Source: Prevotella sp. | Lineage (GTDB): Bacteria; Bacteroidota; Bacteroidia; Bacteroidales; Dysgonomonadaceae | DNA: 64,000 bases | Assembly (NCBI GenBank): GCA_031285625.1 | Contig: JAITVV010000084.1 | Location: 83,791-147,790, forward strand | Reading direction: 5' to 3' | In this document: positions 27,525 through 61,685 of the stretch, piece after piece | Layout of the letters: every line of letters begins with the position of its first letter | Position numbering within the stretch: position 1 is the first letter of the stretch | Notes under the pieces: model-generated | Told to the model about the DNA's origin: nothing | Database searches by the model: none | What the model saw: only the letters and a program-made list of their open reading frames with translations | Position numbers and translations under genes: made by a program

Positions 27525-28061
27525 ATGCAGTCCTCTGATAAACGGCTTTATCAGATCGCTCTCACACAGGTTGCGGGAGTTGGTGATATTATTGCCCGCA
27601 AACTCTTACAGATAATAGGTGATGAAGAGGCTATTTTCAAATCAAATAGAAAATCACTGATAAGTACAGGTATTTCATCAAAGATAGCAGATGAGATACT
27701 AAATACGAAAGTGCTCGAAAGAGCAGAAAAAGAACTGAACTTTGTAGAGAAAAACAAAATAAGCACTTATTTCATCAGTGATAAAGACTATCCACATCGC
27801 CTCAAAGATTGTAGTGATGCTCCTATTCTACTCTACTTCAAGGGTAATGTAAATTTTAATGCAGAAAAGGTTATCAGTATTGTTGGTACCAGAAAATCGA
27901 CAAGTTATGGTAATAGCTTTTGTGATTCGTTTCTGAAAGATATATCCTCCATTTTTCCAGACACATTAATTGTAAGCGGACTGGCCTATGGTATAGATAT
28001 ACAGACTCATCAATCGGCATTGAAATATAATCTGCCTACAGTCGGAGTACTGACATATTAG
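27525..28061 (+). pseudogene. dprA: DNA-processing protein DprA, truncated by the prophage
   Basis: DprA binds single-stranded DNA and loads RecA during natural transformation. Only the first 178 of about 370 residues remain. They cover the N-terminal helical domain and the start of the Rossmann fold (ISIVGTRKSTSYG, VSGLAYGIDIQTHQSAL, NLPTVGVLTY). The family normally continues with a Gly-Leu-Asp segment, but here a stop codon follows within phage DNA. The remaining half is not elsewhere in the window, so the protein is unlikely to work. Confidence 0.93.
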
Positions 28062-28062
28062 A
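28053..28062 (+). other. Left prophage junction (attL candidate)
   Basis: The DprA reading departs from the family at about 28058. The local text ACATATTAGA agrees at 8 of 10 bases with ACATTTTGGA at the right junction. Serine integrases need only a short shared core, so this could hold the crossover point. It is not proven. Confidence 0.45.
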
Positions 28063-28068
28063 TGTATT

Positions 28069-28097
28069 TTGCAGTATATATTTTTTTCATATCTTTG
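28069..28097 (+). promoter_or_regulatory. Host-type promoter of the serine recombinase
   Basis: TTG (28069-28071), an 18-base spacer and TATCTTTG (28090-28097) match the host consensus. It lies 17 bases before the recombinase start. It differs from the phage-specific AAATATCAATA sites found in front of the structural genes. Confidence 0.7.
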
Positions 28098-28114
28098 ATT
28101 AAAAATTAAAGGAT

Positions 28115-29971
28115 ATGGGAAAAGTAATATTGTTAATTAGGGTAAGTACTGACAGGCAAGAATATGAAGCACAGACCACAGAGTTAGTACAGTTTGTTAA
28201 ATCATTTGGTTATGGTGATAATGACATAATATTGATTCAGGATAAAGAATCAGCTATCAAGTTATCAGAAGAAGAAAGGCAAGGATTAAATAAGATGAAA
28301 GAAGCCATTGTTAATAATGATGGCAATATTGATGCTGTATATTGTTGGGAGTTATCACGCTTATCAAGACAACCAAAGATATTATATTCTATCAGGGATT
28401 TATTATTAGAAAAAAGAATTAATTTAATAGTAAAAGAACCATTTTTAAAATTATTGGATGATAATAAAGAACCTGTATCTACATCAATGATTCAGTTTGG
28501 ATTCTTCATTACATTGGTTGAAAATGAAATGAGGGATAAGAAAGCAAGGTTTGATAGGGGTAGAAAAAATAAAGCATCACAAGGTAAATATGTAGGCGGT
28601 TATATTCGATATGGATATACAATAGATTCCAATAAGAAGTTTATTATAAATGAAGATGAAGCACAAATAATAAGGCTTGTATACAATTTATATGAGACGG
28701 GTAAATATTCACATAGGACAATAGTAGCTGAATTGAAAGAATTGGGGTATGGTAATGATATTGCTAATATTGGCAAGGTACAGAACATATTGAATGCAGA
28801 GGAATATACAGGTGTTACCAAGAATAAAAAATTAAACATATCTTTTCCAATAATCATATCAAAGGAACAATTTAATATATGTAGGCAAATAAGCAATGGG
28901 AATAATGATAAGTTGAATAAATCAAGTGAGATATATTATTCACAGTTATTATTGGAATGTTCTTGTTGTGGTAAGCATTTACATCCAAAGAAATCAGTAA
29001 ACTTATATGGATGTCCTGATAGGACTGTTTTAAATGGTTATCAGATGGATAATATAATTGAGAAGTGTGTAGACCAAAACTATTTAAATATGTCTATAAT
29101 GGATAGTTTATTATGGTATGTGGCAAAAGAAAAAGAAGCAATTACAATATTATCTTCCACTGAGGAAGAAATAAATTTAAATAATTTAAAGATTGAAGAT
29201 TTAAAGAAAAAAGCGGATAGCATTTATAATAGGTTAGATGATTTAAAAAAGAGAAGAAGCAGATTAGGTTTATCCTTCAGTGATGGAATGATAGATGAAG
29301 AAGCATATAGCAAAAGAAAGCAATCATTGAATGAAGAAGAAAATTTAATTAATAGTGATAAGTTGAATTATATAAATGAGATTGAAAGATTAGAAAAAGT
29401 TAATGCTAATATTCATTCCAATTTAATTAATATGAATAATTGGAGAGATATAAATGAGGGCAAGAATATATTAAAGAATTTGGATATTATTATTGGTGAA
29501 CAATTGGATAAGATTGTTGATGATAAGACAAGATATAATATAATCAGGAAACAAGTAAAGAATGTTGTTGTTAAAAAGATTGATGATATAACTAAACAGT
29601 TGGTTATATATTATAATGATGAAAAGTTTCAAAAAGAAAGTTTCTTTTATGAAAAGAAATCCAAACAATCAAAGCCATCCATATACAGGTTTAGCAACAA
29701 GACCATATTTGATATTAGGTCACGTGATAATAAAGATTATGAAATTAAATTTCCAATTGTAAAAGAATATAAAGGCAAGCCACAATTAGGGCAATATGAT
29801 AAGATAAAAGATAAGATGAAACAAGACCCTGAATATGCTGAGAGGAAAAGAAAGAAAGGATATTATTATACAAGGTGTTGGAAGATAAAGAATGATACAA
29901 AATTAACAACACAGCAAAAAGAAGAACAAATAAATAATTTAACTTCAAAATATAAAGAATGGATTATCTAA
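28115..29971 (+). CDS. Large serine recombinase (phage integrase)
   Basis: This site-specific recombinase integrates and excises the phage. The 618 residues show the resolvase catalytic domain with nucleophile Ser11 in IRVSTDRQ and ELSRLSRQ in the arginine-rich helix. A recombinase domain follows (from about residue 155), then a zinc ribbon with CSCCGKHLHPKK and a second Cys in YGCPDR (about residues 282-305). A long coiled coil lies at about 350-440. Length and order fit large serine integrases such as those of phages TP901-1 and A118. It is next to attL, as expected. Confidence 0.95.
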   Translation: MGKVILLIRVSTDRQEYEAQTTELVQFVKSFGYGDNDIILIQDKESAIKLSEEERQGLNKMKEAIVNNDGNIDAVYCWELSRLSRQPKILYSIRDLLLEKRINLIVKEPFLKLLDDNKEPVSTSMIQFGFFITLVENEMRDKKARFDRGRKNKASQGKYVGGYIRYGYTIDSNKKFIINEDEAQIIRLVYNLYETGKYSHRTIVAELKELGYGNDIANIGKVQNILNAEEYTGVTKNKKLNISFPIIISKEQFNICRQISNGNNDKLNKSSEIYYSQLLLECSCCGKHLHPKKSVNLYGCPDRTVLNGYQMDNIIEKCVDQNYLNMSIMDSLLWYVAKEKEAITILSSTEEEINLNNLKIEDLKKKADSIYNRLDDLKKRRSRLGLSFSDGMIDEEAYSKRKQSLNEEENLINSDKLNYINEIERLEKVNANIHSNLINMNNWRDINEGKNILKNLDIIIGEQLDKIVDDKTRYNIIRKQVKNVVVKKIDDITKQLVIYYNDEKFQKESFFYEKKSKQSKPSIYRFSNKTIFDIRSRDNKDYEIKFPIVKEYKGKPQLGQYDKIKDKMKQDPEYAERKRKKGYYYTRCWKIKNDTKLTTQQKEEQINNLTSKYKEWII

Positions 29972-30012
29972 CGATAATCCATTTTTTTATGTATATAAGG
30001 TAAATATCAATA
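29961..30012 (+). promoter_or_regulatory. Terminator-promoter cassette 1
   Basis: Hairpin GGATTATC/GATAATCC (29961-29980) overlaps the recombinase stop codon and is followed by seven T. TATGTATAT (29988-29996), five bases and AAATATCAATA (30002-30012) follow at once. The next start codon is 15 bases further. Confidence 0.7.
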
Positions 30013-30027
30013 ATATAAATTTGATAT

Positions 30028-30791
30028 ATGATAAAGATAACAATTGATAATGTTGATTACAATATACCTTCTGAATGGTCAGATGTAAAATTATCCCAGT
30101 ATGAAAAATGGTTTGAATGTGACATAAAAGAAAAGGAAGATGAAATTGCATTTGTATCTAATGTATCAGGAATTGATTTAAACCTATTAAAAACGCTTCC
30201 ATTGAGTTTTTATAATGATTTGGTAGATATAATAGGATTCTCATTAAAAGATGCTAATATGCTTCCTAAATCGAATATAATAATTGATGGTATTCAATAT
30301 TCAATTAACTCAAGGAATGAATTAACATTGGATGAATGGGTAGATACAGAAGCTGTATTAAAAGGAAATGATAATAAGTTAAGTTCAGTATTAGCAATTG
30401 TATGTAGACCAACAGGTGAAATATATAATAGTAATAGATTATCTGAAAGGATTGAATTATATAAGAATATTACAATGGATAAGTTGTTTCCCTTATTCAG
30501 TTTTTTTTTGACCTTAAAAGAACAATATCAAAAGATTATGAATACCTGTTTAATGGTTCAGGAAGTAACAAACCAATTGCACCTGCATATAGAGAATTTA
30601 GTAAAAAATGGGGGTGGTATAAGCAGATTGCAGAATTGGCGAATGATAATATTCAAGAAATGGATAACATTCTCAAACTCAAAGTTATTGAAGTATTTAA
30701 CTTCCTTTCTTATCAGGTTGATAAGCAAAAAGCAAAAGAAGAACAACAAAAGTTTGAAGAACAATTAAGAAAGAATAATATGAATAATTAA
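30028..30791 (+). CDS. Tail assembly chaperone with probable -1 frameshift
   Basis: In the first frame the protein reads normally for about 160 codons up to FSFF and then becomes atypical text until 30768. In the -1 frame, entered at the T9 tract 30501-30509, it continues as DLKRTISKDYEYLFNG, REFSKKWGWYKQIAELAND and a charged C-terminal helix ending at 30791. The combined product is about 254 residues. The layout matches tail chaperone genes (lambda G/GT type), which make a short and a frameshifted form. Its position before the other tail genes fits. A lost T in the tract (mutation or error) is the alternative. Confidence 0.65.
30501..30509 (+). other. Poly-T (T9) slippery site
   Basis: Nine T contain the heptamer T TTT TTT in the zero frame, the classic arrangement for -1 ribosomal slippage. 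The downstream -1 frame is open for 93 codons and looks protein-like. Transcriptional slippage on the same tract would have a similar effect. Confidence 0.6.
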
Positions 30792-30800
30792 AATAATATA

Positions 30801-31397
30801 ATGATAAAAAAGATAATATATTTATTTGAAAGGTTATCCAAACAGCATAAATTAATTCAATCATTCTACTATAACCGCAATTATGAAATTGGTAGTGGCA
30901 ATGAAAAGCATCCTTTATTATGGTTGGAAGACCCGATGTATATAAATATAACAGGTTCAAATAATAATATAATTGAAGCAGATATAAATTTCAGTGTGTT
31001 ATTGATACCAAATGAAGATACAACCTTTGTAGATTGTCAGGATTTAGCATTTAGTACAGGTCATAACATCATAGAATATATTAAAAAGTATAAACCATTT
31101 GGATTTATAATAAAATCAGGTACAGAATCTGCATTAACATTGCAACATTATTATGATAATAATACAGCAGGTGCAAGATTTTCGTTTGTTTTACAGAATG
31201 CCAATCCTGCAAGTATATGTTTATTGGATGAGCATTTTGAATCAGGTGTATTTAATTGTGATTTCAATGATGATTATTTAAAATATTGTAATGATAAAGA
31301 AGAAGATAAGGTTAATGATTTTGATGTAACCCCTGCAAATAATTGCACAACCTTTGTAGATAAATTACCTGACTTCACATTAAGGACATCAAGATGA
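30801..31397 (+). CDS. Phage structural protein of unknown function
   Basis: This 198-residue soluble protein starts 9 bases after the tail chaperone and overlaps the next gene by 4 bases. It has no motif I recognise. The mix of beta-rich text (NFSVLLIPNEDTTFVD, ARFSFVLQNANPASICL) and its position between chaperone and tail-completion gene suggest a tail or neck component. Confidence 0.6.
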   Translation: MIKKIIYLFERLSKQHKLIQSFYYNRNYEIGSGNEKHPLLWLEDPMYINITGSNNNIIEADINFSVLLIPNEDTTFVDCQDLAFSTGHNIIEYIKKYKPFGFIIKSGTESALTLQHYYDNNTAGARFSFVLQNANPASICLLDEHFESGVFNCDFNDDYLKYCNDKEEDKVNDFDVTPANNCTTFVDKLPDFTLRTSR

Positions 31398-31864: not shown

Positions 31865-31872
31865 AATATATA

Positions 31873-31925
31873 GAGTATCATTAGATACTCCATTCTTTTT
31901 TATGTATATGTTATAAATATCAATA
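31873..31925 (+). promoter_or_regulatory. Terminator-promoter cassette 2
   Basis: Hairpin GAGTATC/GATACTC (31873-31890), a T tract, TATGTATAT (31901-31909), five bases and AAATATCAATA (31915-31925). The start codon follows after 14 bases. Confidence 0.7.
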
Positions 31926-31939
31926 TTTAAAAAATTATA

Positions 31940-37001: not shown

Positions 37002-37056
37002 GGGAACACAATAAAGTGTTCCCCTTTTTTTTATGTATATGTGGGAAATATCAATA
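37002..37056 (+). promoter_or_regulatory. Terminator-promoter cassette 4
   Basis: Hairpin GGGAACAC/GTGTTCCC (37002-37023), eight T, TATGTATAT (37032-37040), five bases and AAATATCAATA (37046-37056). The start codon of the tape measure follows after 19 bases. Confidence 0.7.
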
Positions 37057-37075
37057 TTTCAAATTACTATTTGAA

Positions 37076-40000
37076 ATGAGTGATAAAAAAACTTTCTCAA
37101 TAACCATTGATGGTTTGGAAAAAGCATATAATGATGTACTTAAATTAAGTGATGCACTGAAAGCAATTAACAGTGTTAATGCTTCTGTTGCTACAACTAA
37201 TAATGAAGTAACATCATCAATTACATCTAAAAGTAAAGCTACTGATGAATTATCAAAGGCACAGGAAAAATTAAATGCTTATGATGCTGAATATCAAAGA
37301 CAATTAGCTGAAACAAAAGCTGAATTATCAGCAAATAATAAAGAAATTCAAAATAATATTAAAGTAACACAAGCATTAGCAACAGTTGAAGCAGGTGTTA
37401 CAGATACTTATGCTGATAAACAAAGGTTATTAACTGCATTGGGGACTACGATTAAAAATATGTCCACCACAACTGATGCTGAGATAGCTCAACAGAATGA
37501 ATTAATTGCACAATATAAGGCATTAAATGATGAATTAACAGCTACTGATGAACGTATGGGTAATAACCAACGCAAAGTAGGTGCTTACGAAAATGCAACC
37601 AAATCATTGAAAGGTCAGTTAAGGGAAATGACAGAGGAATTGGCAACAATGATTGCTAATGGTGTTCAACCAACTGATGCTGCCTATCTTGATTTAGCGA
37701 CACGAGCAGGGGAATTACGTGATGCAATGGGTGATGCACAAGGTGCTATTACTAAATTTGGTTCTGATACAAGGGGATTAGATAATATTATATCAGTCGG
37801 ACAAGGTATTACATCCATATTTGGTACTGCACAGGGTGTAATGTCAATGTTTGGTCAATCGGGTGAACAGGTTGCTCAATCTATGGAGAAGATGATGGGT
37901 GTAATGACTACCTTACAATCACTCCAAGAATTGCAAAATCAATTAACTACACAAGGTACTGTGTTCAATAAATTATATACTACTGTATTACAAGCGATGG
38001 GATTAGCTAAAAAAGCTGATATAGCTAATACAGTATCACAGGCAGCAGCAACAACAGGTGCAAGTGTAGCAACAGGTGTTGCCACAACAGCAATGAAAGC
38101 ATTTAGGATTGCATTAGTTAGTACAGGTATTGGTGCTTTAATTGTTGGTTTAGGTCTATTAATATCCAATTTTGATAGTGTTAAAAAATGGGTGGTTGAT
38201 TTAGTTCCTGCATTAGGCAATATGGGTGAGGCTTTTGATGAAGTTAAATCTGTTGTGATGGGTATTGGTCAGGCATTATTGGAATTTGTTATTGCTCCAT
38301 TTAAGACTTTGATAGCTGTTGTACAGGGATTTATGGAAAATGGTATTGATGGCGCATTAGCAGCAGGTGAAGCACAGGTTAAAAGTTCACTTGATGTGGT
38401 TGGTAATTATGAAAAAGGTTATCACGACCAAAGTGTTAGGAATGCAGAAGCAGCAGCCAAAGCAAAAGCAGAAGCATCAGCAACTGAATTAGACAATTTA
38501 ATAAAAGATAATGAAGCTAAATTGGGTTCAGATTGGAAATATTCAACTGAAGGTAGAAAAGCATATGCTAATTTCTTTGATGCTAAAAAAGCAATGTATG
38601 GTGATGATAAAGAAAAGTATGCTGAGGCTCAAAGAGAGGCTTGGAAATTTATGGCTGAGACTACCAAACACGATGCAGACGAAAGAAAAAAACGTTCTGA
38701 TGCAGGTAAACAGGCAGCACAAGAAGCTAAACAAAGATTGGATGATTATAAAAAATCATTGGAAGCATTCACCAAACAAACGAATACATTAGAGATTAAT
38801 AATGAAAAAACAAGAATTACCAATGCAAAAGATGCTGCTGAAAAAATGGTTGCTACAACCAAAGATGAGTTAACCAAACGAAATAATGCTATAACAGAAG
38901 CCTATGGTAAACAACAGATTCTACAACAAAAATTAAATTTAGATGAAATTGCAGCAGTTGATAAACAATATAATGAATTGATTGAAAAAGCTAAAAAAGC
39001 TAAAAAAACTAAACAAGATATAAGTAAAATTGAAGAAGAAAGACAAAATCTATTATCTGAATTAAGAACAAAATTCACATTAGAAGAAATTAATTTAAAT
39101 AAAGAAAAAAACGAAAAAATTAAATCTTCCAATAAAGATTTTGATGATGATGAAAAAGAGAGGGCTGAAAATGCTAAAAAGTTAGCACAAGATAAGGTTA
39201 ATTTTGAGATGGAATTGATTGATAAACAATTTAAAACCATTAATGAATTAAAAGAAAACTTTACTGCAAGGGGTGGAGCATTAGATTTAATTGATGTTGA
39301 CCAAACAAAAGCAAATCTTGCTGTCATTCGTGATGAATTGGATAAACAAAAAACCTCATTAGTAAAATATAAAGATGAATTAGAGAAAAATACTACACTT
39401 GACCCCAAGGCAAAAGAAAAAGCATTGGATGATATTAATGCTAAAATTAAAGTTAATGCAAAAGATATTGCTGATAATACCCAACAACAAACCCAAGTTA
39501 TGACTAACTATTGGGCTGATTTTTCGGATAAAGTTGGTGGTTATATATCTGTTGTTAGTGATTCTTTAAATTCAATATTTGAAACAGTTGGTTCTTTCTT
39601 TGATATGAAGTTAGAAGAAGCACAAGAAAAATTAGATGAAATATCTGAAAAATATGATGAAACTGTTGAATTACAAGAAGAAAGCAATGAAAGGTTATTA
39701 GCATTACAAGAAGAAGCTAAAAATGTATCAGGTGGTAGGGCATTAGTTGTACAGGATGAAATTTCTCGTGAAATGGCATTAAATAAAGAACTTGCCAACC
39801 AAGAAAAACAATTAGCAAAAGAAAAAGAAGCCCGTGAAAAAGAAGTTGCCAAAATTCAAAAACAACAAAAGAAAGCTGAATTGATGGGAAATATTGTTAG
39901 CGGTTTATCAGGTGGTGCATTAGCTGTAATTAATGCATTACAGGTACAACCATTCCCATTAGGGTTAGCATTAGCTGCTGTTGCAGGCGCAATGAGTGCT

Positions 40001-40453
40001 GTACAGGTTGGTATAATGTCAGCTCAATTAGGTAAGTTAGAAAAGGGTGGATTATTACAAGGTAAACGACATTCAGAAGGTGGTATTCCTGTTGGTAATA
40101 CAGGTATTGAAGTTGAAGGTGGTGAATATGTTACCAATCGCAATACAACATCAAAGAATTTGGGTCTATTAACCTACATAAATAGTCAGGATAGGGAATT
40201 AGGTATTAATGATTTTGTTAGTTATTATGATGATAGTACAGGTAAAATAATGCCTAATCCAAGATTTAGAAAAATGTTTGCTGATGGTGGACAAATGGAT
40301 ATATCAAATATATCAAATTCATCAGGTACAAACAATGATGCAATCTTAAATGCATTATCAGGTATTAATTTTTCACCTGTTGTTAGTGTGGTTGATATAA
40401 TTGATTCTACTGCACAAGTAACAAGTGTAAGAGATTCAGCAGGATTTTCATAA
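37076..40453 (+). CDS. Tail tape measure protein
   Basis: This protein sets tail length and is injected with DNA. From ATG 37076 it has 1125 residues; an upstream in-frame start at 37016 would translate the cassette and is rejected. It has long coiled coils (about 60-200, 480-760 and 870-940), hydrophobic segments near 340-365 and 395-420, and a Gly/Ala-rich hydrophobic region near 940-985. The hydrophobic core ALVSTGIGALIVGLGLLI is typical of tape measures. Length implies a long flexible tail. Confidence 0.9.
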   Translation: MSDKKTFSITIDGLEKAYNDVLKLSDALKAINSVNASVATTNNEVTSSITSKSKATDELSKAQEKLNAYDAEYQRQLAETKAELSANNKEIQNNIKVTQALATVEAGVTDTYADKQRLLTALGTTIKNMSTTTDAEIAQQNELIAQYKALNDELTATDERMGNNQRKVGAYENATKSLKGQLREMTEELATMIANGVQPTDAAYLDLATRAGELRDAMGDAQGAITKFGSDTRGLDNIISVGQGITSIFGTAQGVMSMFGQSGEQVAQSMEKMMGVMTTLQSLQELQNQLTTQGTVFNKLYTTVLQAMGLAKKADIANTVSQAAATTGASVATGVATTAMKAFRIALVSTGIGALIVGLGLLISNFDSVKKWVVDLVPALGNMGEAFDEVKSVVMGIGQALLEFVIAPFKTLIAVVQGFMENGIDGALAAGEAQVKSSLDVVGNYEKGYHDQSVRNAEAAAKAKAEASATELDNLIKDNEAKLGSDWKYSTEGRKAYANFFDAKKAMYGDDKEKYAEAQREAWKFMAETTKHDADERKKRSDAGKQAAQEAKQRLDDYKKSLEAFTKQTNTLEINNEKTRITNAKDAAEKMVATTKDELTKRNNAITEAYGKQQILQQKLNLDEIAAVDKQYNELIEKAKKAKKTKQDISKIEEERQNLLSELRTKFTLEEINLNKEKNEKIKSSNKDFDDDEKERAENAKKLAQDKVNFEMELIDKQFKTINELKENFTARGGALDLIDVDQTKANLAVIRDELDKQKTSLVKYKDELEKNTTLDPKAKEKALDDINAKIKVNAKDIADNTQQQTQVMTNYWADFSDKVGGYISVVSDSLNSIFETVGSFFDMKLEEAQEKLDEISEKYDETVELQEESNERLLALQEEAKNVSGGRALVVQDEISREMALNKELANQEKQLAKEKEAREKEVAKIQKQQKKAELMGNIVSGLSGGALAVINALQVQPFPLGLALAAVAGAMSAVQVGIMSAQLGKLEKGGLLQGKRHSEGGIPVGNTGIEVEGGEYVTNRNTTSKNLGLLTYINSQDRELGINDFVSYYDDSTGKIMPNPRFRKMFADGGQMDISNISNSSGTNNDAILNALSGINFSPVVSVVDIIDSTAQVTSVRDSAGFS

Positions 40454-41717: not shown

Positions 41718-41763
41718 AAAGGTGGACATGTCCACCTTTTTCTTTTTATATGAAATATCAATA
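41718..41763 (+). promoter_or_regulatory. Terminator-promoter cassette, variant
   Basis: A 22-base perfect palindrome (41718-41739, core GGTGGACATGTCCACC) is followed by a T-rich tract and AAATATCAATA (41753-41763). TATGTATAT is degenerate and the spacing is shorter. The start codon is 18 bases further. Confidence 0.6.
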
Positions 41764-41781: not shown

Positions 41782-43440
41782 ATGACCATAAATGAATTAA
41801 AATATCTAATTACAACTAAAATATATACAAATGGTATTGAAGATATAACAGCAGAAGATTTACAACAAGTGTTATTGGTTATGGCAGATAGTGCATTTAC
41901 TGATGTTATTGACAGATTAGATGTAACACGTGTTGATGCAGCATTATCAGCTAATCAAGGTAAGATATTGAATGATAAAATTACTTCAATATTAAATGAT
42001 ACATCTGATATTCATCTTACCATTAATAGTATTCTATCAGAATTGCTTACATTATCAGATAATATTGCAACTGAGGTTAATGATAGAAAAACTGCTGACA
42101 CAGCCATATTAGTTAGTTTAGATAATGAAATTACCAACCGCACAAATGGTGATATATCAATTAATACAGCCCTAACAAAAGAAATTCAAGATAGAAAAGA
42201 TGCAGATACTGCCATTAATACAACTATTACAAGCAATGTTAATACTATTAATGGTAAAATTAATACTTTAACCAATAATTTAACTGCTGAGGCTGCTATT
42301 CGTGAACAAGCTGATACAGCATTAGGTGTAAGAATTGATAATGAAACTACCAATAGAATAAATTATGACCAAAGATTGGATGATAAAATATCAACTGAGG
42401 CTACTGACAGGAAAAATGGTGATATTCAGATTCAATTAACATTAAATAATGAAATTGAAGAAAGAAAATCAGATGTAAACGCTTTAAATACAAGGGTTAC
42501 AATTGAAGTTCAAGATAGAACCAATGCAGATAAATTACTTAATCAACGAATTGATAATCTTCCTGTAATTGATTTAACACCATATTATACAAAGGATGAG
42601 GTTGATGATTTAATTGATAATATTGAAGCAGGTGAAGTAGATTTATCTGATTATTATACTAAAGAACAAGTAGATGAAGCCATTGATGAAGCAGTTACAG
42701 GTGGTACAGTCGATTTATCTAATTATTATACAAAAACTGATGCTGATGCCTTATTAAATAATAAAGCTGATAAATCAACAACTTATAACAAGACAGAAGT
42801 AGATAGTAAATTTACACCATATTATACATCAGCACAAGTTGATAGTAAAATTGCTGCTATTCCTACTGTTGATTTAACTAATTATTATGATAAGGATGAA
42901 ATTGATGACCTATTAGATAATTTATCAGCAGGTGATGTTGATTTAACAAACTATTATACTAAGTTACAAGCAGATAGTTTATTATCAAATAAAGCTAATG
43001 TAGGTGATTCATATACCAAGACAGAAGTTGATGGTAAAATTGCTGCTATTCCTGCTACTGATTTATCAAATTATTATACCAAGACAGAAGTAGATAGTTT
43101 AATACCTGATTTATCTAATTATTATACCAATGATGAAATTGATAATTTGCTATTAAATAAGGCTTCTGCTATTGATGTAGCAGGTAAACAAGATAGATTA
43201 ACAGCAGGTACTAACATTACAATAGCAGGTAATGTAATATCAGCAAAAGATACTGTATATGATGATACTGCACTACAATTAATGGTATCACAAAAGCAGA
43301 ATCAATTAGTTGTTAGTGATGGTTTAAATTTGGATAGTACCAGATTAACTTTGGATATCCAACACGTGATATTAACACAGGCAGAATTTGATGCATTAAC
43401 CACTAAATCAACCACAACAATATATTATATAAAAGGATAA
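41782..43440 (+). CDS. Tail fibre with YYTK repeats
   Basis: This 552-residue fibre is made of heptad-like coiled coil (about 60-260, with repeated DRK/NRTN units) and then about eight copies of NYYTKTEVD-type repeats (about 265-460). Such repeats are typical of phage fibre shafts that trimerise. The C-terminal part (RLTAGTNITIAGNVISAKD and YYIKG) is a common fibre end. It is followed after one base by the next gene. Confidence 0.75.
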   Translation: MTINELKYLITTKIYTNGIEDITAEDLQQVLLVMADSAFTDVIDRLDVTRVDAALSANQGKILNDKITSILNDTSDIHLTINSILSELLTLSDNIATEVNDRKTADTAILVSLDNEITNRTNGDISINTALTKEIQDRKDADTAINTTITSNVNTINGKINTLTNNLTAEAAIREQADTALGVRIDNETTNRINYDQRLDDKISTEATDRKNGDIQIQLTLNNEIEERKSDVNALNTRVTIEVQDRTNADKLLNQRIDNLPVIDLTPYYTKDEVDDLIDNIEAGEVDLSDYYTKEQVDEAIDEAVTGGTVDLSNYYTKTDADALLNNKADKSTTYNKTEVDSKFTPYYTSAQVDSKIAAIPTVDLTNYYDKDEIDDLLDNLSAGDVDLTNYYTKLQADSLLSNKANVGDSYTKTEVDGKIAAIPATDLSNYYTKTEVDSLIPDLSNYYTNDEIDNLLLNKASAIDVAGKQDRLTAGTNITIAGNVISAKDTVYDDTALQLMVSQKQNQLVVSDGLNLDSTRLTLDIQHVILTQAEFDALTTKSTTTIYYIKG

Positions 43441-44591: not shown

Positions 44592-44632
44592 ATGGTTGCA
44601 GTGATTGCAACCATTTTTTTATTTATCAATAT
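44592..44632 (+). promoter_or_regulatory. Terminator-promoter cassette, variant
   Basis: Hairpin ATGGTTGCA/TGCAACCAT (44592-44614) with seven T is followed directly by TTATCAATATT, a variant of the core. The start codon is at 44646. An in-frame ATG in the hairpin at 44592 is not a plausible start. Confidence 0.55.
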
Positions 44633-44645
44633 TATAAAAAATAAT

Positions 44646-45836
44646 ATGATTAATAGAGATTTACCATTATATAAATGTGAAATTAAGGATGATGATGATA
44701 CAGGTATATATGCAATGTCATTTGTTGATTATCCTGCTGTTGAAGTAGATTTTATTGCATTATCAAAGGTGTCTGAACATAAACTACACCTTAACCAAGA
44801 TAAACAAATTCTTACAGGTGCTATATTAATTCCTGACCAAATAATATATAGAAATGATAATGGATATGAATATAACATATCATTTGATGCTGACCAAATT
44901 GAAAAAATATCACATAAAATGATGAAAAATTCAATTGTTCTTCATAGCACCACACATCAACATCAATCTGAACTATCTGATAATTATTTAATTGAAATGT
45001 GGATAATTGAAGACCCTGATAATGATAAATCAAATGCATTAGGCTTTAAAAATTTACCAAAAGGGACAATGATGGCTTCATATAAGATTACTGATAATGA
45101 TTATTGGTTAAATGAAGTAAAGACAGGCAATGTAAATGGATTTAGTCTAGAAGGGTATTTTTACGACAATAAAGTTAATCTAAAAAAAGATAAAGAAAAA
45201 TTATCAATAAAAGAAAATATAGTAGAAATGCAAAAAGAAAATACAAGTTTAATAAACAGAATTTTAAAAGCAATTAATATGTCAATGGATGAAGTTGATT
45301 CAAAAGATGTAACTGAATCTGGTAAAAACTTTAAAGAATTTACATTGAAAGATGGTAAAGTGATTAAAGTTGATGAAGAAGGATTTGCAACTATTGATGG
45401 TGAACAAGCTCCAAGCGGTGAACATATCTTATCTGATGATGCTGTAATTGTAATTAATGCAGAAGGGTATATGGTTGAAACAGTTGAAGAAGTAAAGAGT
45501 GAAGAACCTGCTACTGCTGAAACTGAATTAGCTGATGAAACACCTGCTGATGAACCAAAATCAGAAGATGCACCTGTTGAAAAATTCAAAGTTGAAATTG
45601 ATGGTACTGAATATGAAGTTGATGAAGCGGTTGCAAATTATATTGCTGCTTTACAAGCTGAAATAGCCTCTCTTACAGAAGATAAGACAGCAACAGATGC
45701 TGAATTAGCTACATTGAAGAAAAATACACCAAGTGCTTCACCTATTAATGTGAACGCAAACAAAAATGAAAAAAAATATACTGAAATGAGTAGAGCAGAA
45801 CAAATTGCTTACCAAATGAGAAGTGTATTAAAATAA
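44646..45836 (+). CDS. Prohead protease, XkdF-like, with C-terminal scaffold region
   Basis: About 396 residues. The first 180 resemble XkdF-type prohead proteases (FVDYPAVEVDFIALSK, GAILIPDQIIYR, HQHQSELSDNYLIEMWIIED, GTMMASYKI, VNGFSLEGYF). The acidic, Ala/Glu-rich C-terminal part with coiled coil looks like a scaffold. It lies directly before the major capsid gene, the usual place. The protein likely shapes and matures the prohead. Confidence 0.8.
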   Translation: MINRDLPLYKCEIKDDDDTGIYAMSFVDYPAVEVDFIALSKVSEHKLHLNQDKQILTGAILIPDQIIYRNDNGYEYNISFDADQIEKISHKMMKNSIVLHSTTHQHQSELSDNYLIEMWIIEDPDNDKSNALGFKNLPKGTMMASYKITDNDYWLNEVKTGNVNGFSLEGYFYDNKVNLKKDKEKLSIKENIVEMQKENTSLINRILKAINMSMDEVDSKDVTESGKNFKEFTLKDGKVIKVDEEGFATIDGEQAPSGEHILSDDAVIVINAEGYMVETVEEVKSEEPATAETELADETPADEPKSEDAPVEKFKVEIDGTEYEVDEAVANYIAALQAEIASLTEDKTATDAELATLKKNTPSASPINVNANKNEKKYTEMSRAEQIAYQMRSVLK

Positions 45837-45890: not shown

Positions 45891-46811
45891 ATGGCAATAG
45901 ATTTAACAACTACAACTTATCAACCAAAGAGAGAATTAGATTTCTTTACCAAGTTGATGTTTAATAACAAAACATCTGAACACGTGCGTATTATACCAAA
46001 TGTAAAATATGAAACACTATTAAATATATCTGATATTACAGATGATTTGCTACAATTTGATGGTGCAGGTGTTGATTGTGGATGGACACCTTCAGGTGAT
46101 GTAAAATTCAGTGAAAGAGTACTTAAAGTAGTACCATTCAAAATTAATTTTGAGCAATGTTTAAAGGATTTTGAAGGAACTTGGTTAGGTGAAGCAATGA
46201 AACCAGGTGCAAATTTAGGTGAAATGCCTATTGAGGCTAATGAACAAATTGTTTTCCTTTTAGGTAAAAAAATTGGTAAAGAAATTGAAAATAAAGTTTG
46301 GAATGCTGTGGCTTCTGCAACTTCAAATGATGGTTTCTTAAACATTTTGGCAACTGCAACTGATACTAATGCAGTAGCAGGTGTGAGTTTAACAAAAGCT
46401 AATGTTTTGGGTGAGATGGAAAAAGTTTACTTAGCACAAACTGCTGATGTAATTGGCGGTTCACAAGAAGGAAATTTAAAATTCTATGTTGGTACATTAA
46501 CTTCTCAAATAATTAGATTGGCTTTGGGTGATGCTTCAAATCAAACAATTGCTTCAAATTGGGTTGCTGATGCAAATGGTTTAAAATATATGGGTTATGA
46601 TGTTGTTGCATTGAATGCAATACCTGCTAACACTATTGTATTTGCAAACCAAACTAATTTAGCTTATGGTACTGACTTGATTTCAGATGAAACTGAATTA
46701 AAAATTGGTATGTTCCCTGAACCTAATGAAGATATGTATTTTGCAAAAGGTCGTTTGAAACTTGGTGTACAAGTTGGATTCCCTGATGAAGTAGTTTACT
46801 ACCATTCATAA
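45891..46811 (+). CDS. Major capsid protein
   Basis: This 306-residue protein follows the prohead protease and scaffold and is followed by tail-tube-like genes. It has the mixed alpha/beta character and even composition of phage capsid subunits (KVVPFKINFEQCLKDFEGTWL, PEDE-type loops). I identify it by position and general resemblance to capsid proteins of Bacteroidetes siphophages; no short motif proves it. Confidence 0.7.
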   Translation: MAIDLTTTTYQPKRELDFFTKLMFNNKTSEHVRIIPNVKYETLLNISDITDDLLQFDGAGVDCGWTPSGDVKFSERVLKVVPFKINFEQCLKDFEGTWLGEAMKPGANLGEMPIEANEQIVFLLGKKIGKEIENKVWNAVASATSNDGFLNILATATDTNAVAGVSLTKANVLGEMEKVYLAQTADVIGGSQEGNLKFYVGTLTSQIIRLALGDASNQTIASNWVADANGLKYMGYDVVALNAIPANTIVFANQTNLAYGTDLISDETELKIGMFPEPNEDMYFAKGRLKLGVQVGFPDEVVYYHS

Positions 46812-51331: not shown

Positions 51332-51347
51332 TGATAAATATTTGATA

Positions 51348-52517
51348 ATGGCAAGAATTAAAGCTATACAAAAACTATCATATTCGACTATTAAATTATC
51401 TGATAATATTCCTGCGTACCCAACATTTAAATATGATATGGGTAAAGGTTTTGTTAAATTTGGAAAGAAAAATCTATTCCCTCAGGAATTGCTTGATATA
51501 ACAGCAGCTTCACCAATCAATAGTTCAATAATCAAATCTAAATCTATATATACATTAGGTATGGGTGTTGATACTACCAAATTTGTAGGACAACCAAATT
51601 TTAAACAATCTTGGAATCAATTCTTAGATAGATTAATATTGGATTATATAACATTTGGTGGGTATTCATTTCAGATTATTCTTAATGAAGATGGTAAATC
51701 AGTTAGTTTATTCCATCAAGATTTTTCAACTGTTAGGTGTGGTGAATATGATGAGTTTGGAACTATTCATAATTATTACATTTCAAACGATTATACTAAA
51801 TCAAATATTGCAGCAATACAATTACCTGCGTGGAATGGTTTTAAACAAGCCACCAAAGGACAACCATACTTATTTGTGTATAATAATTATGTTCAAAATA
51901 TGCCTTATTATACTTTGCCTGAATGGTATTCGGCTATTAACTATGTTGATGCTGATGGTCAATTAGGTAAGTTCTATAATAATGCGATAAATAATAATTT
52001 TATGCCTTCTATTATGCTACAAATGCCATCTGACCCTTCACCTGAAGAAAAAGATGCTTTTGAACATAATTTGGTTAATACATTTAGTGGGGTTGAGAAA
52101 GTGAATAAAATATTGGTGATGTGGAATCAATCCATAGATAACCCAATTAAAATTGAAAAATTTGAGGCAAGTAGCAATACAAACCTATATAATACTATTG
52201 ATGAAAAAATAACACAGAAGATAATTACAGCACATAGATTAACTTCACCTACATTAGCAGGTCTATCAGGTAGTGGTAATTTAAGCGGTAATGCTAATGA
52301 GATAATTGATTCAATGATATTGTTCAACTACTCAGTTATTTTAAATTATCGTATTAATATCTTGAATGGTGTTAATCAATTTGTTAGAAACAATTATAAT
52401 ACAGAACTTTCATTTATTGATTTACCAATAGTTGATAAAATCAAAGAATTGAATCAAACCCAAACCAAAGAAGAAATAGTTGAAGATATAAATGAAAATT
52501 TAAAAAAATTAAAATAA
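51348..52517 (+). CDS. Portal protein
   Basis: This protein forms the ring through which DNA enters and leaves the capsid. I start at ATG 51348 (389 residues) in place of an upstream TTG. The text resembles PBSX-type and Bacteroidetes phage portals: LFPQELLDITAASPINSSII, ILDYITFGGYSFQIILN, PYYTLPEWYSAINYVDAD, IDEKITQKIITAHRLTSP and GNANEIIDSMI. It sits downstream of the capsid genes, an inverted order relative to most phages. No terminase gene lies beside it. Confidence 0.85.
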   Translation: MARIKAIQKLSYSTIKLSDNIPAYPTFKYDMGKGFVKFGKKNLFPQELLDITAASPINSSIIKSKSIYTLGMGVDTTKFVGQPNFKQSWNQFLDRLILDYITFGGYSFQIILNEDGKSVSLFHQDFSTVRCGEYDEFGTIHNYYISNDYTKSNIAAIQLPAWNGFKQATKGQPYLFVYNNYVQNMPYYTLPEWYSAINYVDADGQLGKFYNNAINNNFMPSIMLQMPSDPSPEEKDAFEHNLVNTFSGVEKVNKILVMWNQSIDNPIKIEKFEASSNTNLYNTIDEKITQKIITAHRLTSPTLAGLSGSGNLSGNANEIIDSMILFNYSVILNYRINILNGVNQFVRNNYNTELSFIDLPIVDKIKELNQTQTKEEIVEDINENLKKLK

Positions 52518-53475: not shown

Positions 53476-53497
53476 AAAGGTGGACATGTCCACCTTT
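53476..53497 (-). terminator. Terminator of the minus-strand regulatory operon
   Basis: This 22-base palindrome (core GGTGGACATGTCCACC) is identical to that at 41718-41739. Read on the minus strand it is followed by a run of T, so it ends the DUF5053 gene transcript. Confidence 0.7.
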
Positions 53498-54258: not shown

Positions 54259-54714
54259 ATGAAAATAGAATTAAAAAGAATATACAAGTGTGCAAAATAT
54301 ACTATAGGTCATTTATTCATTGATGGTGAATATTTTTGTGATACCATTGAAGATTGTGACAGAGGATTAGATGATAGTATGTCATTGGAACAAATTAAGG
54401 CAAAAAAAATATATGCTGAAACAGCTATTCCGACAGGTATATATACTGTAAGTATTGGTATTGTTTCCCCAAAATTTTCTCAAAAACCTTTTTATAAAGA
54501 ATTTTGTGATGGTAGAGTACCAAGATTATTAAATGTAAAAGGCTTTGATGGGATATTAATGCATATTGGTTTGAATGAAAGAAGTTCAGCAGGATGTATA
54601 ATAGTTGGTGAGAATAAAATAAAAGGTCAAGTAATCAACTCTCAGGCAACATTTGAAAGATTTTATGAAAAATTGAAAGAGGTAACCGATACAATAATGA
54701 TTGAAATTAAATAA
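54259..54714 (+). CDS. DUF5675-like protein, probable lysis role
   Basis: This 151-residue protein matches the DUF5675 pattern (MKIELKRIYKCAKYTIGHLFIDGEYFCDTIED, DRGL, AIPTGIYTV, GILMHIGLNERSSAGCIIVGEN). Members are common in Bacteroidetes phages and have a conserved His and Cys like an L,D-transpeptidase-type fold. A role in cell wall breakdown is plausible. Its enzymatic activity is not established here. Confidence 0.75.
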   Translation: MKIELKRIYKCAKYTIGHLFIDGEYFCDTIEDCDRGLDDSMSLEQIKAKKIYAETAIPTGIYTVSIGIVSPKFSQKPFYKEFCDGRVPRLLNVKGFDGILMHIGLNERSSAGCIIVGENKIKGQVINSQATFERFYEKLKEVTDTIMIEIK

Positions 54715-56367: not shown

Positions 56368-56373
56368 TATTGT

Positions 56374-56488: not shown

Positions 56489-56588
56489 TATTCTTACTGA
56501 GGTGACATTAAAAAAATATGTTGTAAAACATATGAAAATAAATTAACCAAAAGTGAATTTTTGCAAAGTATTATATATTTATAATTAT

Positions 56589-56857: not shown

Positions 56858-56885
56858 AAATAAAAAGTAGTATAATAAAATAAAT

Positions 56886-58019: not shown

Positions 58020-58023
58020 GATT

Positions 58024-58275
58024 ATGCCACGATTATCATTTAAAGGTTGCTTAAATGCTCCATTCATTAAAGTAGAACATTATAGAGATAATACCTATTT
58101 GAAAGTTATAAGGACAAATTTAAACGATTATGAACTTAATAAGCTAACCAACCTTATAACTTACCTGACTGATAAGTATCACTCAAGGATAAAGTTAGAA
58201 CCAAAGAAGATTATTATAAAAAAAGAAAATAATATACAATTAGAAAAATTTAAAAAGATAATTATAAATAAATAA
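58024..58275 (+). CDS. Small basic hypothetical protein
   Basis: From ATG 58024 this is an 83-residue basic protein (MPRLSFKGCLNAPFIKVEHYR...) ending in a Lys-rich tail. It starts 4 bases after the previous gene, so an upstream in-frame start inside that gene is unlikely. No family is recognised. Confidence 0.55.
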   Translation: MPRLSFKGCLNAPFIKVEHYRDNTYLKVIRTNLNDYELNKLTNLITYLTDKYHSRIKLEPKKIIIKKENNIQLEKFKKIIINK

Positions 58276-58284
58276 ATAAATCAA

Positions 58285-58746
58285 ATGAAAAAATTATTTA
58301 CACTCACTTTACTTGTCATCACATTGTTTACAGCAACAACAACTTTTACATCTTGCTCGAAAGATGATGATGTATTTCAACTTAATGGAGTTATGGAAGA
58401 TGAAATTGATATTACATATTTAAATCAATTTGAATCTGATGAGGCTGAATATGAATTTCTCATCAACAAATATAATATTACCCCCGAACTAAGAGAACTA
58501 TTAACAAAGATAGGTGGACAGGGACAAGTGAAAGGAGAAATAACTGATGTTAATGTTATAAAGGAATGGGTGAATAAAGATAAACCAATTCATTTCAAAT
58601 TTAATAAAAATACATACAACCCCAAAAATTACCACATAATTAAATATAATCACTATTATCACTATCCAATGAATAATTATACTGAAGATGGTGAATATGA
58701 TTTAATATTCTTACCCATTGATGTTATATGTAAATGGACTTGGTAA
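58285..58746 (+). CDS. Phage-encoded lipoprotein
   Basis: This 153-residue protein has a lipoprotein signal (MKKLFTLTLLVITLF, then FTSC at the cleavage site) followed by an acidic SKDDDVF. It contains no enzyme motif. A prophage lipoprotein may alter the cell surface, for example superinfection exclusion, which is inference. Its last gene position before a terminator fits a lysogeny cargo gene. Confidence 0.65.
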   Translation: MKKLFTLTLLVITLFTATTTFTSCSKDDDVFQLNGVMEDEIDITYLNQFESDEAEYEFLINKYNITPELRELLTKIGGQGQVKGEITDVNVIKEWVNKDKPIHFKFNKNTYNPKNYHIIKYNHYYHYPMNNYTEDGEYDLIFLPIDVICKWTW

Positions 58747-58819
58747 TAACAATATAATAGTTATCCATCTATATTAAAATGGTTAAATAGATTTCATATT
58801 GTGTTTTGTTATTTGTTGC

Positions 58820-58848
58820 AACCCCTGCCTGTGATAGGTCGGGGTTTT
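58820..58848 (+). terminator. Terminator after the lipoprotein gene
   Basis: Stem AACCCC...GCCT pairs with AGG..CGGGGTT around a 5-base loop, followed by TT-rich DNA. Confidence 0.65.
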
Positions 58849-58856
58849 GTTATTAA

Positions 58857-58866
58857 TTATCAATAT
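58857..58866 (+). promoter_or_regulatory. ATTATCAATA site before the DUF6808-like gene
   Basis: Core variant directly after a terminator; start codon 17 bases further. Confidence 0.4.
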
Positions 58867-58883
58867 GATAAATTAATAATGTT

Positions 58884-59360
58884 ATGAAGGAAAGAATCAT
58901 TTATATATCAATTATACTTGTATTATTGACTAAATTACATTTAAATAATGATGTTATAACCACAACAACTACAACTACAACCACAATAGATACACTATAT
59001 ATAACTGATTCCATTATAATCAACAAACCACAATATATAGATAAGTACATCACACATCATATAACTGATACACTATACTCAGTTGATAGTATATTAGTTC
59101 CTGTACATATTCCAATCGAAACAGCAATATATTCTGATTCAACATCAACATATAAATATAAGGCACAAATAAGCGGATATAACCCATCATTAGATAAATT
59201 GGATATATATACTACCACACCACAATATAATTCAACCACGATAATCAAACAGGGTAAACCAAAGAAGTTTTCCTTATCTGTTGGGGTAGGTTATCAACCA
59301 TTCAATAATCATTCAATCGGACCAACTATTACAGTTGGTTACAATATTTTTTCATTTTAA
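58884..59360 (+). CDS. Membrane-anchored protein with barrel-like C-terminus (DUF6808/spanin-like)
   Basis: This 158-residue protein has an N-terminal membrane helix, a run of nine Thr, a Thr/Ile/Asp-rich beta region and a C-terminal piece SLSVGVGYQPF...TITVGYNIFSF typical of outer-membrane beta strands. It resembles the DUF6808-type proteins of Bacteroidetes phages and could link inner and outer membranes during lysis. Not proven. Confidence 0.5.
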   Translation: MKERIIYISIILVLLTKLHLNNDVITTTTTTTTTIDTLYITDSIIINKPQYIDKYITHHITDTLYSVDSILVPVHIPIETAIYSDSTSTYKYKAQISGYNPSLDKLDIYTTTPQYNSTTIIKQGKPKKFSLSVGVGYQPFNNHSIGPTITVGYNIFSF

Positions 59361-59485
59361 AATATTTTAAATAAGTATTTACTTTTTCATCTATTCTTAT
59401 ATCTTTTATATATAACATATAATTTTTTTTTACAAAAAACTTAACTTTTTAAAAGTTGATGATATTTATATATAAAGGGAATATA
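59361..59485. other. Short AT-rich gap, no gene
   Basis: T-rich tracts and a weak AACTTAACTTTTTAAAAGTT inverted repeat near 59436. No credible gene. Confidence 0.5.
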
Positions 59486-59569
59486 ATGAATACAGATTAT
59501 AAATATTTAATTCTTCTCTATCTCTTGGAAGAATTATTTGAAGATGGTGAAGAACCTGATAAAGAATAA
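59486..59569 (+). CDS. Possible 27-residue gene in frame with the next
   Basis: A short frame (MNTDYKYLILLYLLEELFEDGEE...) starts with ATG after an AT-rich leader and ends in TAA. The next gene is in the same frame with only a GTG start, so this may be the original N-terminal part of that gene, cut by a stop. Confidence 0.35.
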   Translation: MNTDYKYLILLYLLEELFEDGEEPDKE

Positions 59570-59584
59570 AAAAATGAAAAAGAA

Positions 59585-60157
59585 GTGGTACAATTTAAAT
59601 CGAAACAAGATGAAATAAATGATAAACTGAATAGTCTATGTCCTGACTATAATGATAGAATTAGGGTACAGGAATATATAAGCAGAAGCATTATAAGTAA
59701 TTATTATCTTATACCAAGGGGAACAAATAAAGAACAAATAGTATATACACCATTGGATAATGATTACTATGATATAGGCATACCTTCAACACAGACAAGC
59801 ATAGAAGTGAAAGAACGTTCTTCTATCTATGATGGAAGACTTATAATAGAGGAAAAAAAGTTCATTAATCTAATGATGCAACGTAAGCCATACTATATTA
59901 ATTACTCATTGGACGGTAATACCATATACACATTTGACCTTAATATACAAGATATACAAGATATACCAACAGAGATATTAACCTGCAACGATATAACATA
60001 TAAATCATCGACAGATAAAATAGAAAAAAAAGTTAAATACTTACCAAAAGAGTTAGCATATACTTATACCGTTAATCAACCATTTATTAATATCAAATAT
60101 GATTATGTTAAACGATTAACAATTGAAAATATAAACAAGAAAATTTTAAAAAAATAA
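59585..60157 (+). CDS. PD-(D/E)XK nuclease-like protein (tentative)
   Basis: A 190-residue frame beginning at GTG. The pattern DNDYYDIGIPSTQTS, IEVKERSS with an E-x-K pair, and a following helix (EEKKFINLMMQRK) are compatible with a PD-(D/E)XK nuclease core. This is a pattern guess. Its stop overlaps the start of the next gene. The lack of a good start raises doubt about the 5' end. Confidence 0.4.
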   Translation: MVQFKSKQDEINDKLNSLCPDYNDRIRVQEYISRSIISNYYLIPRGTNKEQIVYTPLDNDYYDIGIPSTQTSIEVKERSSIYDGRLIIEEKKFINLMMQRKPYYINYSLDGNTIYTFDLNIQDIQDIPTEILTCNDITYKSSTDKIEKKVKYLPKELAYTYTVNQPFINIKYDYVKRLTIENINKKILKK

Positions 60158-60795
60158 TGAAACAAAATAAAACAAGATATAACTATGGTGGATGTGGCAG
60201 GGATGGACACAATAATAAAGGCAAAACATATATTAACTATGAAGATGACTATATACCATCCCCCGAAGATATGCAACGATGTGATGAATTTAAATTATGG
60301 TTCAATAATAATTATAATGAAATCAAATCAAATCTAATTGATAAAGGTAAATATAATGAGGACACGATAATTAATACATTCCTTAAACTATATCGTATAT
60401 TGGAACGCGGACATATTATAAATAATTATAGAACATATTGGAATACAGCGTATTTCACTAATATTTTTAATGAAACCATCAAAACTTCAAAATATAATAA
60501 CAGAATGGAATATATAGGTGATAATGGTGAACAATATGATGGAATAGATTATAATGACAATGGTGAAGAACAATATGATGAACTAATTCATCAAATTGAT
60601 GAATGGTTAAATGATAATGTAACAGATGTGATTGAAAGGGAGATATTCATCATATATATCAATACTAAGTATGATACCAACTATAAGATGACCTACACAA
60701 GACTATCACAACTAACAGGTGTTGATGAAAATAAAATTAAAGAAATAATACCAAGAATAAAAAAACAAATAAAAGATAAATTTAAAAAAATATGA
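60157..60795 (+). CDS. Sigma-70-like factor
   Basis: A 212-residue protein. After a Gly-rich N-terminus, the segment YNEDTIINTFLKLYRILERGHIINNYRTYWNTAYFTNIF resembles sigma region 2, and the C-terminal MTYTRLSQLTGVDENKIKEIIPRIKKQ is a region-4-like helix-turn-helix. Such a factor could direct polymerase to phage promoters such as the AAATATCAATA sites. The assignment is by pattern only. Confidence 0.5.
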   Translation: MKQNKTRYNYGGCGRDGHNNKGKTYINYEDDYIPSPEDMQRCDEFKLWFNNNYNEIKSNLIDKGKYNEDTIINTFLKLYRILERGHIINNYRTYWNTAYFTNIFNETIKTSKYNNRMEYIGDNGEQYDGIDYNDNGEEQYDELIHQIDEWLNDNVTDVIEREIFIIYINTKYDTNYKMTYTRLSQLTGVDENKIKEIIPRIKKQIKDKFKKI

Positions 60796-60939
60796 TGACA
60801 TTAATATTATTAATTATAATTAATATAATAGGCTACACAATAGGCTATGTTGCAACTGAAACTAAATTTAGATTTGTTGACTACTTCCCAAATTTAAATT
60901 TTAAACCATTTAATTGCAGACCCTGTTTCACATTTTGGA
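60792..60939 (+). pseudogene. Phage membrane protein cut by the right junction
   Basis: The first about 49 codons (MMTLILLIIINIIGYTIGYV, then FKPFNCRPCFTFW) look like a small phage membrane protein with an NCRPC motif seen in Bacteroidetes phages. The frame then enters antisense M28 peptidase DNA, so the C-terminus has been lost. The frame runs on to 61061 only by chance. Confidence 0.6.
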
Positions 60940-61685
60940 CAATCGCCAAAAGCAGGATGAGATTCCGTATAGAAATAAACCACATGCTTCGGATTGTACT
61001 CATTATTGTTTCTTCCAATCATATCAAAGTTGAGATAACCCTTAATAGAAGATGCGAATGAACAATTAAGCATAAAATATTCAGACCCTAACAATCCTAA
61101 TTCCTCACCATCCCAAAAGGCAAAAATAACAGAGCGCTCAGGTTTCTCCCCACTGGCAAGAAAAGCTTTTGCTATCTGTAAAACTGCAGATACACCGGAT
61201 GCATTGTCGTCTGCCCCATTGTATATTTTATCTTCGAATAATGCCTCATCCATACCCAGATGGTCGTAATGAGCTCCGATTATAACAAACTCATCTTTAT
61301 TTTTTCCTTCGATATAGCCAAGTACATTACGTAGCTCCAATTTTCTATGCGCAGCCAGTTGTTTATATTTAGAAATAGAGTCAGGGTGTACCGAGTAACG
61401 GACTCTCTTTTGTCTTTCTTTACTATACGCCTCAAAGTATTGAAAATAAGAATCCTTGTTTAGAGGTTTTATACCCAAATCCTGCAAAAGTGATTTTATA
61501 TATTCGCCTGCAACCTGCCCTCCATGCCTGCCAGCCTCCCTTCCTTGAAGGGCATCACTCGCCAGAAAGCCGACATAAGCTTCTGCACTTTCTTTATTTA
61601 TAGTTTTTAATCCTTTCTCTTTGGGAGATTGAGAAAATAAAGCTATAGAAATGAACAACAAAAAAGGGAATAGTAATCTTTTCAT
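60894..61685 (-). pseudogene. M28 family zinc aminopeptidase, 3' end replaced by phage DNA
   Basis: A secreted metallopeptidase. It keeps the signal peptide (MKRLLFPFLLFISIALFSQ), Zn ligands in IGAHYDHLG, NGADDNASG, the catalytic Glu in WDGEELGLLGSEY and NFDMIGRN. After SHPAFGD the text leaves the family and ends after 14 phage-derived residues. The C-terminal His ligand and about 70 residues are missing, so activity is doubtful. Confidence 0.9.
60930..60939 (+). other. Right prophage junction
   Basis: Phage coding text ends and antisense M28 coding text begins at about 60930-60945. The bases ACATTTTGGA agree at 8 of 10 positions with ACATATTAGA at the left junction. A true attR is possible, but the flanking host gene is not dprA. 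Confidence 0.45.

Follow-up and report, generated by a model that had tools for sequence, protein, structure and literature searches.

A prophage-like element without GATC in a Dysgonomonadaceae genome: probable imprint of repeated restriction

In a stretch of 64,000 nucleotides of Prevotella sp. DNA, family Dysgonomonadaceae (contig JAITVV010000084.1 of assembly GCA_031285625.1, positions 83,791 to 147,790; the window, below), a prophage-like element at 28059..60947, to which no strand is assigned, is without the tetranucleotide GATC. The lack is confirmed and is far beyond chance. CCAG and CATG have been purged from this element, the window phage, as strongly as GATC. The best explanation, and a probable one, is that repeated selection by Type II restriction systems has left its imprint on the prophage. 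A sequence-only reading of the same DNA had pointed to long selection against a restriction or methylation system targeting GATC, an interpretation that is partly supported: it has the right kind of explanation, covers too little, and cannot be pinned on this particular host. The case is a well-marked example of a phenomenon already known; its loss of CCAG is unusual, and its placing of CATG in hairpins is unexplained.

Between 28059 and 60940, the interval to which counts for the window phage refer, GATC is absent, as had been claimed; the whole window contains 82. The GATC-free gap spans 27554 to 61927, or 34,373 bases, no other gap in the window being longer than 2,124. Base composition predicts 80.6 for the interval, and a second-order Markov model 85.2 (expectations are Markov values except where a codon shuffle is named). 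The description of GATC frequency in the flanks as normal stands, with 76 against 108 expected in the left flank (1-28058, 28 kb). For purL about 15 had been given; the gene at 21210-24896, by its length the one meant, has 13. When synonymous codons were permuted among identical amino acids in 27 coding sequences (28,359 bases), 44.1±4.3 GATC were expected in coding sequence, the minimum of 300 shuffles was 30, and the observed count was reached in none of these 300 nor in any of the 200 of another run. Because the lack survives this protein- and codon-preserving control, and persists in diverged relatives, selection acting at the DNA level on GATC is supported. A single substitution would turn any of 1,612 four-base words of the element into GATC. 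Had selection ended, with all later changes neutral and even, zero GATC would put the divergence since then at less than about 0.6% (95% bound). Either the element entered this host recently or selection continues.

GATC had been taken to be the sole extreme outlier. Tetranucleotide counts contradict this. Observed/expected is below 0.1, with sufficient expectation, for GATC (0/85), CATG (2/99) and CCAG together with its complement CTGG (4/129). By codon shuffle the expectation for CCAG/CTGG is 79±7, and coding sequence has no CATG where 31 are expected. CTAG (4 versus 35), GGCC (0 versus 8), CCGG (0 versus 3, and 0 versus 11.5 by codon shuffle) and the six-base palindromes GAATTC (0 versus 8.5) and CTGCAG (0 versus 6.0) are also below expectation. 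Other palindromes fit it (GTAC, 81 versus 75; TGCA, 149 versus 171) or are moderately low (AGCT, 56 versus 86; TCGA, 15 versus 22). Of the words that had been named as occurring in the phage, GTAC, AGCT and TCGA do so; CATG is present just as two copies of one hairpin.

The avoidance of CCAG applies to both orientations, with three CCAG and one CTGG on the + strand, which carries nearly all genes. The four residual sites are CCAGT (30096..30099, +), CCAGA (43340..43343, +), CTGG on the + strand, hence CCAGA on the other (45319..45322, −), and CCAGG (46203..46206, +). With these contexts, a longer target behind CCAG is not favoured in the window phage.

The nearest relatives found come from Dysgonomonas sp. 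520, a member of the same family as the window genome: two prophages (NZ_QVMP01000015, NZ_QVMP01000013) and a short contig. Their aligned pieces have about 65-75% DNA identity to the window phage, and all three stretches lack GATC where 55, 62 and 11 (128 together) are expected. At such divergence, the absence must have been maintained in both lines and not merely inherited. In the two prophages, GGCC and CCGG are also zero, CATG and CTAG are low, and CCAG is partly depleted (44/110 and 16/109 expected). Residual CCAG precedes G in 1 of the 44 and 1 of the 16 cases, against 19 of 126 in a host flank; there may be extra pressure on CCAGG in these prophages. A far lineage in IMG/VR has no GATC against 27 expected in 14.1 kb, overlaps removed; CCAG, counted over its five overlapping contigs, is 118 against 128 expected. 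(L089, one of the overlapping contigs of this lineage, has a single GATC.) That its five contigs represent five phages was rejected, as their long overlaps are 95-100% identical (two short ones, 88-90%), making them one lineage. Relatives were found by alignment searches; searching viral and genome contigs with a single portal sequence yielded none.

A set of 50 sequences, comprising the window phage, the two Dysgonomonas sp. 520 prophages, 43 IMG/VR loci and four named phages, shows how often short words are eliminated. The IMG/VR loci are from the best 80 of 509 relatives, 37 of the 80 having been dropped as shorter than 8 kb; the first 40 kb of crAss001 and 40 of the 47 kb of B124-14 were used. 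With elimination set at observed/expected below 0.1 and expectation of at least 20, the eliminated words, per testable sequences, are CTAG in 17/47, GATC in 12/50, CCGG in 7/26, CATG in 5/45, CGCG in 4/35, GGCC in 2/27 and CCAG in 1/49, counts that are not independent since near-duplicates (L163, L167) are included and some loci may contain host DNA. The single case of CCAG is the window phage, and it is the only asymmetric word in the set below a tenth of expectation, the rest being palindromes. Against its uniqueness are values near the cut-off elsewhere: CAGG 4/32 and CTGC 9/46 in L141, and CAGG 13/71 in L143. [The asymmetric CAGG/CTGC are strongly low in the relatives L141, L143 and L144, CTGC 33/84 being among the values.]

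Loss of GATC is known and ordinary for phages, having been seen in crAss001, phiX174 and the phages surveyed by Rusinov et al. (2018); loss of an asymmetric word, CCAG, is unusual. The unrelated large phage crAss001 (MH675552) has 1 GATC and 2 CTAG in 102,679 bases (the count was made on three pieces and skips their two junctions), and differs from the window phage in that CATG (92/110) and CCAG (195/227) are near expectation in its first 40 kb. In passages of the papers on crAss001, crAss002 (PMC8042965) and phiPDS1, GATC appears as a company name and, in one, in a primer sequence. The complete lack of GATC in phiX174 is described in PMC5014478; that phage, unlike the present one, is a small single-stranded DNA phage of E. 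coli, and its case is explained there via mismatch repair. Passages of Rusinov et al. (PMC6286503) portray restriction-site avoidance as widespread, not universal, and due mainly to orthodox Type II systems; where hosts have the corresponding enzymes, the authors count 45 of 46 phages with an observed/expected value for GATC below 0.8. The phages described in those passages resemble the window phage in having observed/expected below 0.1 at short, mostly palindromic words. They differ from it in that no matching enzyme was found in the window host, the window phage is temperate, and its CCAG is asymmetric. A literature search for CCAG as a motif in Bacteroidetes methylomes gave nothing.

Candidate GATC systems, their specificity presumed from family membership, are present in 15 of 150 related genomes, the host's own being among the 150; at most 8-12 are convincing, and the five families were searched in some genomes and not in all, so this is no full census. 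Matches to DpnII are in 7 of the 150: three strong and full-length (G039, G108, G133), each adjoined by a Dam-type methylase, one a fragment with stops (G069), and three weak. DUF6997 nuclease matches are in 8 of the 150, one of the same genus, and no genome is common to the two lists. A Dam-type methylase lies beside the DUF6997 nuclease in all five loci looked at, the best solved relative of one of these methylases being 2dpm (DpnII methylase). In PADLOC, both nucleases have hits to Type II restriction enzymes. In one study, GATC and CTGCAG are methylation motifs present in all five Bacteroides fragilis group species considered (PMC10333322). The search that had been proposed for MboI-, DpnII- or Dam-like genes in the host and relatives thus gave candidates in related genomes and none in the host among the three families searched there, where a GATC enzyme of another family may exist.

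The host has other candidate defence genes. An HhaI-like cytosine methylase, a 250-aa neighbour and a Vsr endonuclease are encoded at 10952-13068 of L109 (G000:C22), and the cluster is probably a restriction system. Pfam, NCBIfam, PADLOC, PDB sequences and plasmids gave no match for the 250-aa neighbour. The window phage does not avoid GCGC, which HhaI itself recognises (8 versus 5 expected). A methylase-like gene followed by an uncharacterised gene, a weakly BrxD-like ATPase gene and another uncharacterised gene (2156-6855 of L110, G000:C48) is a possible defence cluster. The host also encodes a Type IIG-like protein.

If the explanation by repeated Type II restriction is right, the phage lineage would move among Dysgonomonadaceae and kin that acquire Type II restriction-modification systems and lose them again. 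When its unmodified DNA entered a restricting cell, variants without the target word would survive, and the word would be purged via synonymous and other tolerated changes. GATC would have been purged long ago and kept out in several lines. Pressure on CCAG would be more recent or more local, as it looks to be from CCAG being purged most in the window phage, partly in its nearest relatives and not in the far lineage; the nearest relatives are also low in CATG, GGCC and CCGG. Restriction is the most probable agent because several short words are hit, mostly palindromes, and because related genomes have candidate GATC systems. What the data show directly is the counts, that these do not depend on codon usage, how they are spread over the relatives, and that related genomes have candidate GATC systems; restriction as the agent, the enzymes concerned and the timing are deductions.

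A number of points weigh against it. The GATC specificity of the candidate systems comes from family resemblance only. No Dam-type methylase (PF02086), DpnII (PF04556) or DUF6997 nuclease (PF22518), the three families searched for, is in the host assembly, which is 94% complete. Nor is the Dysgonomonas sp. 520 genome among the DpnII and Dam-type matches, and it was negative for DUF6997 with one protein query. The systems examined include none to which CCAG, CATG, GGCC or CCGG could be assigned. Asymmetric words like CCAG are atypical among purged words; passages of PMC6286503 describe full elimination as less common in temperate phages and as mostly of orthodox Type II sites. Finally, five and nine CATG are left in the two Dysgonomonas sp. 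520 prophages, numbers that would not protect against an enzyme cutting at CATG.

Of the alternatives, that composition or codon usage alone explains the absence has practically no chance of being correct. The element is 28% GC and, in its coding sequence, AGCT (51 versus 91), TCGA (14 versus 40) and likewise ACCG and ATCG are below the codon-shuffle mean. Against this alternative are the expectations of 85 GATC from the Markov model and 44 from the shuffles, none of 300 shuffles falling below 30, and the fit of GTAC and TGCA to expectation; the codon-preserving shuffles led to the rejection of composition and codon bias as the cause. Of the two findings that could have undone the sequence-only reading, GATC sites did not turn up and composition did not account for their lack. 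Mismatch repair directed by Dam and MutH has been proposed to counter-select GATC in enterobacterial phages, and PMC5014478 reports that phiX174 is devoid of GATC and that adding GATC lowers its mutation rate. Its operation here is highly improbable: the host assembly is without a PF02086 match (MutH was not searched for), and GATC does not stand alone, CCAG and CATG, neither of them recognised by that system, being depleted as strongly.

A phosphorothioate defence (Dnd or Ssp) in place of methylation would bring together several of the words. Motifs reported from gut bacteria (PMC11931770), where Bacteroidota was the foremost phylum, include G*ATC, C*CGG, C*CA and C*AG, the last two of which overlap at CCAG, and both GATC and CCGG are zero in the window phage. 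However, CCA and CAG alone are not avoided (observed/expected: CCAA 384/314, CCAT 316/281, TCAG 287/247, CCTG/CAGG 205/138), and the words of G*AGC/G*CTC are near expectation (30/38), making this defence distinctly unlikely as the agent. The agent for CATG is less sure than for the other words. As the five and nine CATG in the Dysgonomonas sp. 520 prophages would give no protection from a CATG enzyme, a signal function is a live alternative, for this word only. CATG would then be no cut site; it would be a reserved word kept in gene-end hairpins and avoided elsewhere so that its reader is not misled. The only two CATG in the window phage each form the loop of a 9-bp hairpin present in two copies (41718..41739 and 53476..53497, neither assigned a strand), the first intergenic with a T-rich right and an A-rich left side. 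All 17 CATG of the sequences surveyed, two in the window phage and 15 in those of Dysgonomonas sp. 520, sit in hairpins (the survey covered the window, L060 from 10301, L061, L062 1-18300 and L038). A perfect stem of at least 6 pairs is present at 16 of them and one of 5 at the other, and every one has at least 6 T or A among the 12 bases on one side. All except one are outside open reading frames (ORFs) of at least 90 aa, the exception being at the very start of a predicted ORF (L062 10402).

By a stricter test, with the whole word in the loop, CATG scores 15/17 against 10/449 for GTAC, TGCA and AGCT combined in two phages. Fisher's test with these three control palindromes (ATAT, 28/956 with stems, was left out) gives p = 7e-20, a value that is too small since the 17 sites lack independence, the hairpins of the two Dysgonomonas sp. 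520 prophages being in part homologous. In host DNA the corresponding hairpin counts are near zero (2/89, 0/41, 0/63, 0/37 and 0/8). Besides this lack of independence, and the CATG within a predicted ORF, two observations oppose a reserved signal. In the window phage 12 of the 14 hairpins listed outside genes have other loops, so that CATG, in just two, is not a required loop; and L163, L167 and L189 have no CATG (25, 25 and 49 expected) without having such hairpins. The signal function is unlikely on this evidence. With repeated Type II restriction still the preferred explanation overall, a bolder proposal is possible, if rather doubtful: Dysgonomonadaceae or their kin may harbour an effective, undescribed defence that reads asymmetric CCAG on either strand and has made a temperate phage shed 95-97% of its sites, with CATG kept only in gene-end hairpins, maybe as a reserved signal.

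The ends of the element are set where host homology stops, that of dprA at 28058 and that of an M28 peptidase gene near 60948. The dprA gene (27525..28061, +; Pfam DNA_processg_A) is truncated after residue 178. It is an open frame of 372-403 aa in other matching genomes of the genus, and its second half is not in the window. The M28 peptidase gene (60894..61685, −; Pfam Peptidase_M28) has lost its 3′ end; homology to relatives stops at residue 246 of 263, and the last residues are encoded by the element. The two genes are convergent neighbours, the M28 gene being opposite the dprA end, in 2 of 11 fetched loci (L221, L223). There, by subtraction, 847 bases separate the two break points, and therefore about 0.85 kb of host DNA seems to be missing at this insertion. 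The element may be a prophage whose right end is damaged or whose insertion involved a deletion.

Just after dprA is the gene for a serine recombinase, the integrase (28115..29971, +; Pfam Resolvase and Recombinase). The integrase gene beside one Dysgonomonas sp. 520 prophage is of another kind, 396 aa and, judged by eye, of tyrosine type. The remaining genes include those for a probable tape measure protein (37016..40453, +), so named from its length and a weak match to PHROGs of unknown function, and a probable head maturation protease (44592..45836, +), with PHROG matches to unknown function (246 bits), protease and head maturation protease. A probable major capsid protein (45891..46811, +) is suggested by place and size, its PHROG having no assigned function, and the portal protein (51342..52517, +) has a portal PHROG. 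Fibre-like genes are also recognised. No match for a large terminase subunit was found in the prophage with PHROGs or with four phage terminases as queries; one of the four does match the host's other phage-like element. The prophage may be defective. The DUF5675 gene region (54259-54714) aligns with crAss-like phages over 164-188 bases at about 70% DNA identity, and its counterparts there are annotated as (putative) transpeptidase or L,D-carboxypeptidase/transpeptidase.

Portal and capsid relatives at about 37-49% identity were rejected as relatives of the window phage, since they belong to another element of host-like composition. This second phage-like element (L039 and L064, G000:C52; relatives L003-L030) has a portal of 45% identity, and is found in other genomes of the genus, in 21 of 24 by portal and 17 of 24 by capsid (one partial). 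Its copy in this host has 123 GATC against 170 expected. Thus not all phage-like genes here are without GATC. In short loci of its relatives the GATC ratio varies, down to 1/8 and 4/16. The second element might be a domesticated particle or a gene transfer agent.

The words purged from the window phage are a record of the defences met by its ancestors. The record seems layered, the absence of GATC being old and shared, and that of CCAG strongest in the window phage. It allows testing of which defences limit the phages of this bacterial family, and points to a CCAG specificity among them.

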